Origin: Thermofilum uzonense
GTDB lineage: Archaea > Thermoproteota > Thermoprotei > Thermofilales > Thermofilaceae
Reading direction: 5' to 3'
Length of the DNA stretch: 64,000 nucleotides
NCBI RefSeq assembly: GCF_000993805.1
Contig: NZ_CP009961.1
Coordinates: 1,450,453-1,514,452 of the forward strand
Numbering within the stretch: the stretch's first letter is position 1; every line of letters begins with the position of its first letter. The notes below the pieces were generated by a model, which made no database searches, was not told the DNA's origin, and was given only the letters and a program-made list of their open reading frames with translations. A program made the position numbers and the translations under genes. Positions 30,637-56,703 of the stretch are shown piece after piece.

Positions 30637-30717
30637 TCTCGAGAAATAAAGAGAAGTCAGGGTTTTTATTATTTGCGGGTCCCACTGCAAAAGAGAGCGC
30701 CCACGCTCACCATCGTC

Positions 30718-31971
30718 ATGGGTCTGCCTCATGACTTAACAAAGGTTAACTGGCGAACACTTTTTTATTGCCTGTCCACGCTAAAGCTATTGGAACCGAT
30801 GCGACCCGTTAAGGAGATTTTCGACGAGATACATGGCTTCATAGACCTCTACCAGACAGAGGTGGAAGTTCTCGAAAACTGCGCCTTAACCCGTCTCCGC
30901 CACGTACTACAGCTTGGCCCTGCTTACAATGTGTACCCCTCCGCTACTCACACCCGTTATGCCCACTCCCTGGGAACAATGCTTCTGGCAGATAAGCTGT
31001 ACTCTGGCGCGGTTAGCGAGCCGGAGCAAGAGGAGAGACGGGTGATCCGGCTAGCAGGGCTTCTACACGATGTTGGCCACCTGCCCTTCTCACATGCTTT
31101 ACCCGGCGACCACGAGGCTCTCGGGATCAAGATTATCAAACAGTATCTCGCGGATGACCTTGCAAGTTACCTTGAAACCATCATAGATGTTCTAAAGGGA
31201 CGACACGAGCTAAGCCCTATCATTTCAGGCGAGGTTGATGCTGACAGGTTAGACTATCTTATACGTGATGCACACCATTTAGGCCTGCCCTACAAGGGGG
31301 TTGACCTAGAGAGGGTTATCAGACACGCTCGGCTTGTGAAGTTGGGCAGCAGATGGGTGATGGCCTTCAGCGAAGGCTCAGAAGTCGCCGTAGAGGCGCT
31401 CATCATTACTAGGCTCGAGCTTTTCAGACGAGTTTACTACCACAAGCATGTTACAGCCTTAGAAGCCCTCCTCGCTAAAATTTACAACAACATGATTGAA
31501 GAGAACTTATTAGAACCCCCATCCGAGATCATTGCTAGCGGGGAATGGTGCTTCTTCGACGACTGCTTCTTACTCGAAAAGATCAAGGGCCTCTCAAGGC
31601 GGGGAGGGTGGCTGGGCGAGGCCTCCCGCATGTTTTTACACGGAGAGATCCCAGTCCTTGTCGCCGAAGTTCATCTTCCGTCAAGTTCACATCAAGACGT
31701 TACTGGCGAGCTTCTGGAAGCCTCAGCCGAGTGCGGTATTCCTCAAGAATGGGTTATCGTGCACATCCCAAAGCTCATCCCTGTAAAGGATCCGGACAGC
31801 CTGCTGATCATACGCGGGGACAGACTCGAGAGCATCATGAACGTCAACGGAAGCCTGTTAAAGGCTCTCAAGGACTTTGCATATTCTCCTGTAAGGGTTT
31901 ACACGAGGCGAGAACATGCTAAGAGGCTTAGGGAGTGTATTCAGCCCAGGCTAGCCCGCCTTAAGCCGTAA
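30718..31971 (+). CDS. HD-domain phosphohydrolase (SAMHD1/dGTPase-like)
   Basis: Metal-dependent phosphohydrolase, probably acting on nucleotides. Motifs are T-R-Y-A-H-S-L-G (first His), L-L-H-D-V-G-H-L-P-F-S-H (HD) and D-A-D-R-L-D-Y-L-I-R-D (last Asp), the order of YdhR/SAMHD1-like proteins. The preceding K-E-I-F-D-E-I-H-G-F-I-D-L is typical of the family N terminus. The frame opens at TTG 30673 and ATG 30718 is a reasonable start. Bases 31661-31717 recur exactly at 54296-54352. The stop overlaps the convergent radical SAM gene by 21 nt. Confidence 0.88.
   Translation: MGLPHDLTKVNWRTLFYCLSTLKLLEPMRPVKEIFDEIHGFIDLYQTEVEVLENCALTRLRHVLQLGPAYNVYPSATHTRYAHSLGTMLLADKLYSGAVSEPEQEERRVIRLAGLLHDVGHLPFSHALPGDHEALGIKIIKQYLADDLASYLETIIDVLKGRHELSPIISGEVDADRLDYLIRDAHHLGLPYKGVDLERVIRHARLVKLGSRWVMAFSEGSEVAVEALIITRLELFRRVYYHKHVTALEALLAKIYNNMIEENLLEPPSEIIASGEWCFFDDCFLLEKIKGLSRRGGWLGEASRMFLHGEIPVLVAEVHLPSSSHQDVTGELLEASAECGIPQEWVIVHIPKLIPVKDPDSLLIIRGDRLESIMNVNGSLLKALKDFAYSPVRVYTRREHAKRLRECIQPRLARLKP
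31661..31717 (+). repeat. 57-bp sequence duplicated at 54296-54352 (source copy)
   Basis: This stretch inside the HD gene encodes A-E-V-H-L-P-S-S-S-H and following residues. It occurs a second time, base for base and in the same orientation, at 54296-54352 outside any HD gene. Here it is continuous with an intact protein, so this is the source copy. Confidence 0.95.
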
Positions 31972-36139: not shown

Positions 36140-36175
36140 GCCTGACCTCCTCCCCGCCCTGAAGGGCGAGGGTTC
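36140..36175 (-). mobile_element. remnant 3' RNA end of an IS605/TnpB-type element
   Basis: The reverse strand reads GAACCCTCGCCCTTC then AGGGCGGGGAGG, a hairpin of the type found at the right end of many archaeal TnpB elements, where the guide RNA scaffold ends. No TnpB coding sequence remains here: a cargo-module fragment begins directly at 36175. In the usual arrangement the lost gene would have lain on the higher-coordinate side. Confidence 0.6.
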
Positions 36176-46867: not shown

Positions 46868-46964
46868 GGGCCGGTCGTCTAGCGGGAGGATGTCGCCTTC
46901 GCAAGGGCTAATGTAGGGGCTCCGAGTACGGCGGAGGTCCCGGGTTCGAATCCCGGCCGGTCCA
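46868..46964 (+). tRNA. tRNA-Ala(CGC) with a canonical intron
   Basis: The acceptor pairs GGGCCGG/CCGGTCC include the G3-U70 wobble, the alanine identity element, with discriminator A. Anticodon loop T-T-C-G-C-A is interrupted after position 37 by about 25 nt (46904-46928), then C38 and the 3' anticodon stem GGCGG. T arm CCGGG-TTCGAAT-CCCGG. Mature length about 72 nt. Confidence 0.92.
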
Positions 46965-47006
46965 CTCTCTATATTTTTGGGGGTTCTAGCATGTCTTCTA
47001 TGCTTC

Positions 47007-47135
47007 CTATTCCTCGAGAAGGCCTTCGATCCTGCTTTGGAGTTCTTCCAGCTCCCTGAGCATTGCATCGATGCCGTTAAGTGCCTTCCTTTGGCCTGGG
47101 ACGATGCTCGCGTAAGCCCTGAGGGTGGCGATGCG
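47007..47135 (-). pseudogene. fragment of the TnpB-associated secreted-helix gene (copy C)
   Basis: The reverse strand reads R-I-A-T-L-R-A-Y-A-S-I-V-P then R-K-A-L-N-G-I-D-A-M-L-R-E-L-E-E-L and Q-S-R-I-E-G-L-L-E-E with stop at 47009-47007. Only the C-terminal module remains. The flank after the stop (GGAAGCATAGAAGACAT) resembles the flanks of copies B and D. It abuts TnpB remnant c two bases away, pointing in the opposite direction. Confidence 0.88.
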
Positions 47136-50766: not shown

Positions 50767-51153
50767 GTGCTCTTGGTTAAAAAAACAGTCATCGAGGTTG
50801 ATGGCTGCAGTGGAGTAGACATTACGGAGACCTTGAGCAGTCTGAAGGACTTTACCCAGAGCATTCAAATCGAGACACCCCAAGGTCTCTCCAGGGTTGA
50901 GGTACGCGTGAAGAGGATTGAGAGGAGTGGCGAGTGTTGGTATTTGAGAATCGGGTTAAGGAAGCGTGAAGGGTGGCTTTGGGGCGAGGATTTCTCAATA
51001 TGCGTTGAAGAGGCTGGGCCCCTCTTCAGGATTAACATTGAGAGAATAAAGGGGGTTGGACGTGTGCACGCTGACGTCTTCGGGTTGTGGATTGTCGAGT
51101 TGCTGAAGAAAAAATGTGCTGCGGTCTCCCCAGTAATAGTGTCACGTCTCTAG
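50767..51153 (+). CDS. protein of unknown function
   Basis: 128 residues, GTG start. Mostly beta strands with charged loops (V-E-V-R-V-K-R-I-E-R, then W-Y-L-R-I-G-L-R-K-R) and a last helix W-I-V-E-L-L-K-K-K. No family recognised. The element with TnpB begins about 10 nt after its stop, so its 3' end may have been altered by insertion. It shares a very short divergent promoter region with the preceding gene. Confidence 0.6.
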   Translation: MLLVKKTVIEVDGCSGVDITETLSSLKDFTQSIQIETPQGLSRVEVRVKRIERSGECWYLRIGLRKREGWLWGEDFSICVEEAGPLFRINIERIKGVGRVHADVFGLWIVELLKKKCAAVSPVIVSRL

Positions 51154-51160
51154 CTTTCTA

Positions 51161-51230
51161 CCCGCTCTGCGCCACTAGGGCGGGCTCCCGGTTACCCTTC
51201 TTAGGGGTTATTGTTTCCGGCTGGTACTTT
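51161..51230 (-). ncRNA. TnpB-associated 3' structured RNA element (omega-RNA-like)
   Basis: The reverse strand downstream of and overlapping the tnpB stop reads AACAATAACCCC, then GGGTAACCGGGAGCC and a closing stem GCCCGC/GCGGGT. The same element follows TnpB remnants b and c, with the stem changed to GCCGCC/GGCGGC and GCCGCC/GGCGGT, i.e. base changes that keep pairing. In IS605-type systems this right-end RNA is the guide scaffold; here that role is inferred. Confidence 0.62.
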
Positions 51231-52740
51231 TTTCTCCTCGTTTAGCGGCCACTACGCCTTGGTGGGTCGGGGTGTAGGTCTCGATTCTCGTCGGTGTCGG
51301 CGGGGTGTATCCCGCCTTGTGGGCGATGTTCAAGCATGCGTTTATGTCCGCGTGTATCTCGAGGCCGCACCGGGGGCACTTGTAGAGGCCGCGGTGGACG
51401 CGGGCCTCCTTGTCCTCGTAGCCACAGTGAGAGCACGTGATCGATGTCTTGCTCTCGTCGACGACGAAGACTTTCATCCCGTGCTCGCTGGCGACCTCGG
51501 CGAGCCATGTGATGATTTTCCTGTAGCCCCAGACGTTGCTGTTCCACTTGTTGCCCTTTTCGTGGATTATGTCGTATGGGAGGCCGACGTAGATTGTGTC
51601 CACGCCCTCCTCCCAGAGGAGGCGGACGAGGTGCTTGACGGTGTTGCGTTTCAGGTTCTGCATCCGCCTAGTTCTCTTCTCCACAGCTCTGGCGTAAAAC
51701 AGGTGCCAGCGATGCCAGGGCAAACCGTGGTTCTTGCACTTATCGCGGAGGCTCTGAAACGTCTTCGCCTCCCTGCTCCAGTACTCGTATTCTGCTTTAA
51801 TGGGCCCTCCCCGATATAGGAGGGCCCTCCCTGTGGTAGTCACTGCCGCAATGACGTTGTTGACCCCGAGGTCGATGAAGGCCTTCTCCCCACCCCGGGG
51901 TTGTTGCAACTGGATCCTGTCACGCTCACCGTTGATGTACATGTAGCTATACTTCCTTTCCCGTGGCGCCGGCACGCCCACGTTTACTGGTATGTAGGCG
52001 TACCAGCGCCCGTTGACCTCTTTGACAACGAGAGTTCCCTGCTTGCCGCGCCAGCGCAGTTTCCCGCGGTACGCTAAGGATATCCACTTCCCGGCAACAG
52101 AGACTATGAGTTTGCCCCTCCGCCCCCCCTCGTTGACAACTCTGTAACCTCTCCCTTCGACGAATAGCACTTTTTCCCGTTTTCCGAGCAAGCGATCCTT
52201 CTTGTACCCGGGCGGCCTAGGCTTCATCCACCCGGGCAGCTTGCCCTCCTTTTTCGCCTTGAGTAGTCCAAAAAACCTCTGCCAGTCTTGTTGGAGTTGT
52301 TCCTTGACACCGTCCGCGATGTAGCTCCCTAGACGGGGCCTGCCGCAGAGCCCCCTGCTGTAGGCCCTGTAGAACACCCTGATTATTCTGCTCACTTTCT
52401 CGTCTGTGTAGTTTCTAGTAAAGAATAGCTTTCTGAGGATGAAGTTCACCTCGTTGTACATCTTAGCCGTAGCGTCAGCGAGGGCCTCGAGTTCCCGCTC
52501 CACCTCGGGGTTCAATTTGAGGCGCAGGACGACGGCCCGGACACCCCCCGTTTCGACGGGGGCACACATCTCATCAGTTACCGGGCCACTTTCCTCGCCC
52601 CCGCTTGGCCCCGGAGGAGCGGGAGCCCTCACCGGCCTGTTGTCGCGCTTCTTTCTCCTTGAAGCCCTGGACTTCGCCCCACCCCCACCCCTCGCTCGGG
52701 GCGGGGCCTTTGCAGGCTTCTCCGCTTTTTCAGCTGCCAT
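51208..52740 (-). CDS. tnpB: TnpB-family protein of an IS605-like element
   Basis: RNA-guided nuclease family encoded by transposons. The C-terminal half has RuvC-I F-I-D-L-G-V-N-N (Asp near residue 284), a zinc finger C-S-H-C-G ... C-P-R-C-G (about 436-460) and RuvC-III A-D-I-N-A-C-L-N-I. At the RuvC-II position the usual Glu is absent (Y-V-G-L-P-Y-D-I); the nearest Glu is in H-E-K-G eight residues on. The N terminus carries about 70 Ala/Pro/Arg/Lys-rich residues absent from typical TnpB. ATG 52740 follows GGTGAGGGG. No tnpA is in the window. Confidence 0.9.
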   Translation of the reverse strand: MAAEKAEKPAKAPPRARGGGGAKSRASRRKKRDNRPVRAPAPPGPSGGEESGPVTDEMCAPVETGGVRAVVLRLKLNPEVERELEALADATAKMYNEVNFILRKLFFTRNYTDEKVSRIIRVFYRAYSRGLCGRPRLGSYIADGVKEQLQQDWQRFFGLLKAKKEGKLPGWMKPRPPGYKKDRLLGKREKVLFVEGRGYRVVNEGGRRGKLIVSVAGKWISLAYRGKLRWRGKQGTLVVKEVNGRWYAYIPVNVGVPAPRERKYSYMYINGERDRIQLQQPRGGEKAFIDLGVNNVIAAVTTTGRALLYRGGPIKAEYEYWSREAKTFQSLRDKCKNHGLPWHRWHLFYARAVEKRTRRMQNLKRNTVKHLVRLLWEEGVDTIYVGLPYDIIHEKGNKWNSNVWGYRKIITWLAEVASEHGMKVFVVDESKTSITCSHCGYEDKEARVHRGLYKCPRCGLEIHADINACLNIAHKAGYTPPTPTRIETYTPTHQGVVAAKRGEKSTSRKQ

Positions 52741-53218
52741 CCCCTCACCCCTTTCGGGGGCCCGGGTTCCTCGGCGTGGAGCCGCCGACCATGGCCGGCG
52801 TCCACGCGTCACAGCGTAGCCCGGGCTCCTGTTGCCCGGGGCCCCAGTGAAGGGGCGCAGGCCTGTAGGCCCGGGCCCCTGAGGGGTGGGGTTGTTACCC
52901 GGGAGCCATGCCCCAGCGCGCAGCCCCCCTGTATCACTGCCCCGTCATGCCTGGACGCCCCCTGCGTCTCGGCGCCCACGCGGCCCACCCGGGAGCCGCC
53001 CCCAGTGACTACCCCCTCTTTACCCCCCGCCTCCACCCATTCCAAACTCCGCGTGGGCTTAGCCGCGCCTTGGGGGCTTCAGGGGCTGTGGCCGGAGCCC
53101 TGGGGGCGGGCTGCCGGCCCGCTCTTGGGGCGTTCCTCTAGGCGGACACCCCCATGATGGCCGGGGGCACCCCGGTGAGGGGTAGCGGGCGCGTGCCCCT
53201 CGCCCCGCCCCGCGACCG
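52741..53218. other. GC-rich stretch upstream of tnpB with many short hairpins
   Basis: About 480 nt without a believable gene, visibly richer in G and C than flanking protein genes. Short perfect hairpins occur, such as CCCGGGC/GCCCGGG (about 52819-52839) and GGCCTGTAGGCC (52860-52871). Such composition in a hyperthermophile usually marks stable RNA. I looked for SRP RNA and RNase P RNA signatures on both strands and did not find them convincingly. It may be a 5' untranslated region or an unrecognised RNA. Confidence 0.4.
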
Positions 53219-53473: not shown

Positions 53474-53539
53474 CTTTCTTTTCCCCGAGAGTGCAGGAGC
53501 ACGTCCTTGTGCCCCAGTTTTCTCGGGGAAGCACTGTGT
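53474..53539 (-). repeat. inverted copy of the 16S leader hairpin
   Basis: The reverse strand is identical to 56638-56703 in 65 of 66 positions. It includes the outer stem CCCCGAG/CTCGGGG and the inner stem GGGGCAC/GTGCTCC. The single difference (G for A in the apical loop) leaves all pairs intact. It lies inside the TnpB/cargo unit, behind a TATA-like CTTTTTATACC (about 53642-53652, reverse strand), so it could be expressed as its own RNA. Confidence 0.9.
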
Positions 53540-53698
53540 AGCCGTCGAGGCCGTGTGCCCGCTCATCCCCCCTTGTCGGGGTTGAGGGCCATTGTTGAGG
53601 GCCTTGCGGCGGCCTGTATGATTAATATTATTATTATTCAGGTATAAAAAGACTAATTGTTTACCTTTTTAATGTTCCTGTTTAATGCTTTTTAGCGT

Positions 53699-54160
53699 AT
53701 GCTTGCCTGCACAGCTCTAGTAATGCTTCTCGTCTCTGCGGTGGAGGGCGAGGAGGGTGCTAGGCTGGAGGCTGAGAGTCTCCTGTGGACGGCTGTCTCC
53801 AACCCTCCTAGCGTCGAGGCCGCCGGGAGGCTGGCTGCCTACGCGTCGAGGGTGGTCGAGAGGGAGTACAGGGAGGCCTTGGAGGCTTACAGCCGGGCAT
53901 TGTCCCTCGCCGGTGGCCTCAACCTACACCCGGGGGAGTCCAGGGCTATGCAGGCCTTCCAGGTTGACCACGCGGGGAGGGCGTACCAGGCTCTAAGCGA
54001 GGCGGTCGAGGAGGTGAACATTCGACGCACACGCATCGCCTCCCTAAGGATCTACGCTGACATCCTCCCAGAATACAGGAAGACACTCAACGATATTGAC
54101 GCGATGCTCAGAGAGCTGGAAGAACTCAAAAGCAGGATTGAAGGACTCCTCGAGGAATAG
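53699..54160 (+). CDS. small secreted helical protein associated with TnpB (intact copy D)
   Basis: 153 residues: a short hydrophobic start (L-A-C-T-A-L-V-M-L-L-V-S-A, signal-peptide-like) and then an all-helical body rich in Ala, Glu, Arg with coiled-coil character, ending in the module A-S-L-R-I-Y-A-D-I-L-P-E-Y, then I-D-A-M-L-R-E-L-E-E-L-K-S-R-I-E-G-L-L-E-E. The family is not recognised. Three truncated or broken copies (36175, 40746, 47007) keep only this end. A TATA-like CTTTTTAATG (53665-53674) implies a leaderless message. It is head-to-head with tnpB. Confidence 0.78.
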   Translation: MLACTALVMLLVSAVEGEEGARLEAESLLWTAVSNPPSVEAAGRLAAYASRVVEREYREALEAYSRALSLAGGLNLHPGESRAMQAFQVDHAGRAYQALSEAVEEVNIRRTRIASLRIYADILPEYRKTLNDIDAMLRELEELKSRIEGLLEE

Positions 54161-54295
54161 GAAGCATGCCAAGGCTTTGCCTCGAGGATCGGTCTTTAAA
54201 GGCTCTGGCAAACCAAGTAAATAAAGCAAAAAGCTTTAAATTGCGAAGCAACCATGAATTCCAGGCGTTAAACATGGAGGGAACAGTAGACTTGC

Positions 54296-54352
54296 TCGCC
54301 GAAGTTCATCTTCCGTCAAGTTCACATCAAGACGTTACTGGCGAGCTTCTGG
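54296..54352 (+). repeat. 57-bp exact copy of part of the HD-phosphohydrolase gene
   Basis: Identical to 31661-31717 in the same orientation; similarity stops sharply at both ends. It lies outside any HD gene and covers the 3' end of the UbiD-family gene on the other strand, including its stop. The preceding 54161-54295 shows no recognisable gene or RNA. Confidence 0.95.
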
Positions 54353-55657
54353 TATCCTGGCACGCTTGAACATCCAGTCCGGCTTGCCTAAGGGACGTGT
54401 AGCATCGATTCCCATCTTTGATGTCATGAGGCTCTTCTGGTCAGCTGAGGGGTCTAGGCTACTCCCCCTAACCCCCCTCAATATTATTACGTCTTCGTCC
54501 GGCTGCATCCTTGTAGCTATAGCCCATTCGACTTCTCGGGGGTTGTCGGGATTCACGTCGCCGTCAACCACTACGACGAGCTTGAGCGAGGGGTGTGCTG
54601 CGAAGGCGGCCAAGATAGCGTTTTTGGCATCCCCGTCCACGTTTTTGTCGATGCTGACAACCGCGTAAAGCCACCCGCCCCCGGAAACCGGGAGTCTGAC
54701 CCTATGGACTCTAGGGACAACCTTACTGACAGACTCCCATATGGTTACCTCCCGCGGGAACCCCATAAGTAATATGTGTTCTTCTCCTGAGGGCAGAATC
54801 GAGTAAAACATTGGGCTTGGACGTGCAAGAATCTCGTGTACTTTGAAGACAGGCTCCTCACGCACCTCATCATACGTGCCTAGTATATCCACGAAGGGCC
54901 CTTCCTTAGCCCTCCTATCAAGGAGGAACTCTCCTAGGATCACGTATTCGCTTGGAACCGGTAGGGGGACTCCTTCGAGCAGGTCTACTGTGGCGGCTAG
55001 ACTACCCCCTGCCAGGCTGTTCGCCACTTCGGCCTCGTATACCCCGTAGGGGGGACTTGATGCGGCGGTCAGGTAGAAGATTGGGGGAGCGCCTATAAGT
55101 ATGGCGGCCCTTAATGGGCGCCTCTTCTTCTCGGCTTTCGTAAACATGTGGTAGAGGTGTCTAGGGACAAGTCTGACGGCTAAGTGGTTCTCGTCGAGCA
55201 GCATAGCCCTATGAATACTAGCATTGATAGCGTTTCCGTCGCACTCCTTGGCCACAAAGATTCCAGCCGTTATGTAGTGGCCCCCGTCGAGCTCGAAGAA
55301 CTTTGGGATGGGTAGTTTGTAAAGGTCATCTCCCAGCGAGGCCATCGAGGGGGTTTCCAGTAGCTCGATCTTCCTCGGAGATGCCAGGGCCCTAGACATC
55401 TGCAAATAAGCCTCAGCGTCGCTAGACACGTTCAAAGCCAAATACAGGGCCTCCCGTGAGGCAAGCAGATTCGAGACTATAGGTCCTTTCTCGGAGTTGA
55501 CCAGGATGGGACTAGGCTGAGCCTCCTGAATAAACCTGGCGACCTGGAACTCTAGCTTTAGCATCGAAGAAGGCGATACAAGCCTTTTCCTCGATGAGAG
55601 CTCTTTCAGAAAAAGCCTCAAATCTAGCTCGGGCCTTCCTCCCCCAGTATTAGACAT
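54335..55657 (-). CDS. UbiD-family decarboxylase with an acquired C-terminal end
   Basis: prFMN-dependent (de)carboxylase family; in crenarchaea a UbiD homologue acts as phosphomevalonate-derived anhydromevalonate phosphate decarboxylase in the archaeal isoprenoid pathway, so that role is likely here. Motifs include E-C-D-G-N-A-I-N-A-S, H-L-Y-H-M-F and the late D-V-N-P-D-N-P-R-E-V-E-W-A. 440 residues. The last residues P-E-A-R-Q and the stop lie within the 57-bp HD-derived sequence, so the native C terminus was replaced. It overlaps spt5 by one base. Confidence 0.9.
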   Translation of the reverse strand: MSNTGGGRPELDLRLFLKELSSRKRLVSPSSMLKLEFQVARFIQEAQPSPILVNSEKGPIVSNLLASREALYLALNVSSDAEAYLQMSRALASPRKIELLETPSMASLGDDLYKLPIPKFFELDGGHYITAGIFVAKECDGNAINASIHRAMLLDENHLAVRLVPRHLYHMFTKAEKKRRPLRAAILIGAPPIFYLTAASSPPYGVYEAEVANSLAGGSLAATVDLLEGVPLPVPSEYVILGEFLLDRRAKEGPFVDILGTYDEVREEPVFKVHEILARPSPMFYSILPSGEEHILLMGFPREVTIWESVSKVVPRVHRVRLPVSGGGWLYAVVSIDKNVDGDAKNAILAAFAAHPSLKLVVVVDGDVNPDNPREVEWAIATRMQPDEDVIILRGVRGSSLDPSADQKSLMTSKMGIDATRPLGKPDWMFKRARIPEARQ

Positions 55658-56534: not shown

Positions 56535-56637
56535 GTCTGATATACAACACTAAAATGCTGCCGTGGACCCCGGCGGCTCGCCTGGATCACGGGGGAGGCA
56601 ACCTCCCCCAATGAAAAGGCGGCCTCCGTCCACGGCA

Positions 56638-56703
56638 ACACAGTGCTTCCCCGAGAAAACTGGGGCACAAGAACGTGCTCCTGCACTCTCGGGGAAAAGA
56701 AAG
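56638..56703 (+). other. hairpin in the 16S leader, duplicated at 53474-53539
   Basis: Two stacked stems, CCCCGAG/CTCGGGG and GGGGCAC/GTGCTCC, with A-rich internal loops. It lies immediately upstream of the 16S processing stem. The same sequence recurs inverted at 53474-53539 within the TnpB/cargo unit. Confidence 0.85.

Follow-up and report, generated by a model that had tools for sequence, protein, structure and literature searches.

Short copies of unrelated loci were found chained together at one end of a TnpB element in Thermofilum uzonense, and the same kind of patchwork recurs at further copies of the element in this genome. The pattern is repeated, polar and often joined by microhomology, and it points to a break-and-patch habit of DNA repair that has been little described in archaea. 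We analyzed a window of 64,000 nucleotides, corresponding to positions 1450453-1514452 of a genome of 1,611,988 bases which consists of one contig and is 99.9% complete; positions outside the window are given below as genome positions. The original prediction had been concerned with a single fragment at one site, where it emphasized the rewriting of an essential-looking enzyme. In our opinion the patchwork at the ends of the archaeal TnpB element is the stronger finding.

The starting point was the segment 54296-54352 (plus strand), which had been described as an exact copy of 57 bp of an HD gene. Sequence comparison confirmed this, as all 57 bases were identical to 31661-31717 on the same strand and the match extended at neither side. 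Chance cannot explain an exact match of 57 bases in 64 kb. The donor segment lies within an HD-domain gene (30673-31971, HD according to Pfam) and contains a length-variable loop, and in three species of the genus the homologous proteins can be aligned to the left and right of this segment. The direction of copying from the HD gene to UbiD is well supported, because the HD homologues retain the residues flanking the donor and the UbiD homologues lack the EARQ tail. The proposed capture of a short ectopic fragment beside the TnpB unit is likewise well supported. Besides, the 57-bp copy is absent from the UbiD relatives, and a conserved element present at both sites was dropped as a candidate. 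We also rejected a structured RNA or conserved hairpin, as the 57 bp with their flanks folded no better than shuffled sequences on either strand and Rfam recognized nothing in the window but tRNAs and rRNA, the latter by archaeal models.

On the minus strand the copy is read as the codons P-E-A-R-Q and a TAA stop, which now terminate a UbiD-family decarboxylase of 440 amino acids (54335-55657, minus strand; Pfam UbiD and UbiD_C, TIGR00148). Comparison with homologues revealed that these proteins agree up to the residues ARIP, whereas the native tails beyond differ in length and sequence and none of them carries EARQ. The proline is conserved in relatives and only E-A-R-Q is new. Hence the C terminus was indeed replaced as predicted, but the effect had been overstated: the rewritten tail matters little, since relatives conserve UbiD only up to ARIP and vary freely thereafter. 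The same relatives were informative for the ancestral arrangement. In these genomes UbiD and a conserved neighbour gene (50767-51153, plus strand) are directly convergent and carry no insert, with stop-to-stop distances of -42 to +71 bp versus 3181 bp in the window, which indicates that direct convergence was the ancestral state. Judged from the sequence, the gap in the window was filled with 136 bp of an LSm gene start followed by the 57 bp of the HD gene, and today an element of about 3 kb lies between the neighbour gene and UbiD.

A search of the whole genome with the flank identified the first of these pieces at 54168-54303 (plus strand), directly adjoining the HD fragment, and the idea of a single-fragment capture was therefore dropped. 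This piece of 136 bp is a copy of genome positions 1426290-1426425, with 134 of 136 bases the same (98.5%) and two private differences. Its donor starts with the final 4 nt of a tRNA-Ser(CGA) gene that contains an intron, crosses the upstream region of an LSm gene (Pfam LSM) and ends within the first LSm codons; the LSm gene beside it is intact. Both donors, the 136 bp at LSm and the 57 bp in the HD gene, are intact, as in templated insertions. The end of the LSm copy and the start of the HD copy fall in the same eight bases, TCGCCGAA (54296-54303, plus strand), which are present at both donors. Thus, the edges of the HD fragment are sharp insofar as the match extends at neither side, but the inner edge is not simple because the adjoining sequence is a second ectopic copy that shares these eight bases. 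In a simulation of random junctions, at least 8 shared bases occurred with p = 1e-4 and 7 bp with p = 4e-4. Eight identical overlapping bases are as expected for microhomology-guided template switching. As a consequence of the fusion, LSm start codons are joined in frame to HD codons in a chimeric open frame of 31 amino acids (54274-54369, plus strand), a putative coding sequence.

The TnpB element itself extends from a clean end at 51162 (CCGCTCTGCGCCACTAGGGCGGG) to a ragged end at about 54167 and is shorter at this right edge than other copies. It encodes a full-length TnpB frame of 534 amino acids (51208-52812, minus strand; Pfam OrfB_IS605 and Cas12f1-like_TNB, NCBIfam guided_TnpB) with the RuvC-type and zinc-ribbon domains of the IS200/IS605 type. 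By eye, the region of the usual RuvC-II glutamate in this protein reads IYVGLPYDIIHEKGNKWN, and the catalytic glutamate may be located at another position. Genome-wide, pieces of the element were located at some 44 loci. Short forms with both ends are frequent among the copies, and near full length is reached only by the window copy and one other (genome 986900-989877). In most copies the left end is crisp and the right end ragged, and no common motif was apparent by eye in the flanks of the ragged ends. The window copy lacks the bases that follow GGAAGC in most other copies. Accordingly, bases were lost at both broken ends, with the element tip shortened and the UbiD tail replaced after ARIP. 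One edge of the element in the window is thus clean and the other a patchwork, since the gene at 50767 continues undamaged to the clean end and the ragged side is filled by copies.

Several further features of the element and its surroundings were observed. Positions 53474-53548 correspond, in inverted orientation, to 75 bp of the 16S rRNA leader at 56629-56703 (96% identity). This leader is conserved in 7/7 genomes of the genus, with five element-type copies in the present genome, and another genome of the genus (G006) contains many dispersed copies of a piece resembling the 75-bp leader segment. The ragged-end part at 53724-54165 shares 93% identity with the 3' end of a gene encoding 1403 amino acids (about genome 1399111-1403322; L067 1112-5323); either this gene acquired the element end or the element acquired the gene tail. 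In several element copies the ragged end also abuts the 3' end of a convergent tRNA gene, at 46868-47010 in the window (genome 1497452) and at genome positions 1175018, 1300416, 1316883, 1418669 and 10704. Beside an element remnant at 36174, the segment 36314-36554 is a 97% copy, of approximately 229-241 bp, of genome 1317189-1317429, which itself lies beside another element remnant. Moreover, two near-identical duplications, each of more than 1 kb, are located beside element fragments (genome 420436-421776 and 1574273-1575614; 1197420-1200160 and 1374600-1376235).

We investigated the recurrence of the patchwork by searching the 140 bp beyond the ragged end (29 copies) and the clean end (22 copies) against the whole genome, with tRNA genes and element pieces excluded. 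Ectopic copies were detected in 9/29 flanks at the ragged end versus 1/22 at the clean end (Fisher p = 0.019), and the single positive at a clean end was the partner of a ragged-end case. After related cases had been collapsed, the numbers were 7/27 versus 0/21 with p = 0.012. These p values serve as a guide only because the contrast between clean and ragged ends had been seen before testing. The copy at genome 1018180 is almost the same build as in the window: the element end is followed by a 7-bp overlap (TACCAGG), 100 bp of 1404400-1404499 (98%), an overlap of 7/8 bases and 135 bp of 361720-361854 (98.5%). At the 1576832 copy we found 76 bp originating in 1404505-1404580, at the 986900 copy 287 bp originating in 1053657-1053943 (97.6%), and at the 1267716 copy 121 bp of 1266408-1266528 (100%) with about 9 shared junction bases. 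The 1347082 copy carries two pieces, of 51 and 28 bp in this order, from donors 0.9 kb apart, both with 100% identity and with no overlap between the pieces, and the copies at 1187355, 1331164 and 1549775 have one flank in common. Overall, the inserts at ragged ends span 28-287 bp and are sometimes two in a chain. Microhomology at template switches amounts to 8 bp between LSm and HD and to 7 and 7/8 bases in the 1018180 copy, whereas some other junctions lack it, namely those from the element to LSm and from 1171k to 1170k. Any overlap at the joint from HD to UbiD is obscured by the loss of the native UbiD tail.

These results are probably best explained by templated repair, mediated by microhomology, of breaks that arose at the edge of the TnpB element. 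In this scenario the ragged edge would have suffered a double-strand break that was resected on both sides, and a 3' end would then have annealed via microhomology to unrelated templates and been extended. In the window, synthesis would have switched from LSm to HD through TCGCCGAA before the final join to UbiD. The break may have arisen from TnpB cleavage of an empty site, from failed excision or from another cause. For ISDra2 it has been described that TnpB cleaves the empty site which excision leaves behind (PMC8612924). The archaeal primase PriSL is a candidate for the enzyme by analogy with Saccharolobus islandicus, where it anneals strands with a few bases in common and continues polymerisation from one discontinuous template to the next (PMC12019639). 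Capture in the course of break repair, as originally suggested, is supported in the main by the intact donors, the 8-base junction, the bases lost on both sides and the recurrence at other copies. Beyond this, the earlier account had missed that a second piece stems from the LSm start, that the junction comprises 8 shared bases, that the element tip was lost and that such patchworks recur.

The main rival to templated repair is serial transposition with carry-over of flanking sequence, in which the element moved from a site by LSm to the HD gene with 136 bp of flank and from there to UbiD with a further 57 bp, the donors being restored and the chain recording an itinerary. The one-ended, nested order of the fragments would fit such a series, and the polar ends, one clean and one ragged, resemble one-ended transposition. 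Besides, 8/9 donors are located at most 7.5 kb from some element copy compared with 29% of random positions, although this proximity is a hint only because the cut-off of 7.5 kb was picked after looking and the donors are partly dependent. An 8-base motif common to cut site and target would likewise suit an IS605-like rule. However, the shared junction bases vary from case to case (TCGCCGAA, TACCAGG, CTAGGCCC), so that they reveal no fixed cleavage or target motif, and an IS605-type target motif at the junctions was set aside. Searches of the genome detected neither a Y1 HUH transposase TnpA of the Y1_Tnp family (PF01797; 5/14 control genomes positive) nor an IS607 serine recombinase TnpA (PF00239; 10/14 control genomes positive), and the donors are intact. 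It is possible that the transposase was recently lost or belongs to another family, but on this evidence we consider serial transposition unlikely.

A different role of break repair is conceivable for the element as a whole, as TnpB elements lacking a resident transposase might be kept or spread by copying that starts at the clean end, crosses the element and stops at the far end with a switch to unrelated templates. We regard this as doubtful; if true, every copy would record the template jumps of repair.

It also seems unlikely that pieces of degraded DNA were captured in the break by ligation or annealing and not copied by template switching. The short length of the pieces (28-287 bp), the presence of several pieces per break and the junctions lacking microhomology are all compatible with a capture of free DNA, but overlaps of 8, 7 and 7/8 bases exceed what simple ligation would leave. 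An artefact of assembly or sequencing that joined unrelated pieces is very improbable, even though the joint is known from assembled sequence alone, since the LSm copy has two private differences and comparable chains exist at other element copies, including the near replica at 1018180, in a genome that is a single and nearly complete contig.

Templated insertions are known from eukaryotes, where they result from polymerase theta-mediated end joining and microhomology-mediated break-induced replication, and insertions from multiple templates joined by microhomology are a hallmark of theta-type repair. The patchwork described here is similar in that short copies of other loci lie at a break, are chained and share microhomology at junctions. 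Unlike the eukaryotic systems, it occurs in an archaeal genome and returns repeatedly at the same side of a TnpB element, with PriSL as a candidate enzyme. IS91/ISCR elements and Helitrons are one-ended transposons that capture flanks. They also display one clean end and one ragged end with host sequence, whereas several unlinked donor loci and microhomology joints are found in our case. Among archaea, microhomology-mediated end joining has been reported in the hyperthermophile S. islandicus, where annealing at microhomology and extension across discontinuous templates by PriSL resemble the steps proposed here (PMC12019639). The products in that study were mainly indels of 1-2 bp, in contrast to multi-template inserts of 28-287 bp in T. 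uzonense; therefore, long chained inserts would extend the known PriSL pattern. Donor-joint cleavage and homing by TnpB in ISDra2 (PMC8612924) and in a plasmid gene drive (PMC11870625) likewise involve a TnpB element as a plausible source of breaks at the element site. There, homology repair restores the element, whereas here the edge was lost and patched and TnpA was not found. According to a review from 2021, only two archaea were on record for alternative end joining, and the enzyme had not been identified at that time (PMC8708640); a later paper implicates primase in the archaeal process (PMC12019639). In the literature we found no direct precedent for templated insertions at transposon ends in archaea or bacteria.

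Several junctions with mapped donors, located at one end of a mobile element in a natural genome, offer concrete substrates with which it can be tested whether such patchworks are products of the archaeal primase and whether cuts by TnpB start them. The finding also illustrates how gene starts and the regions upstream of them can be relocated without an identifiable transposase.
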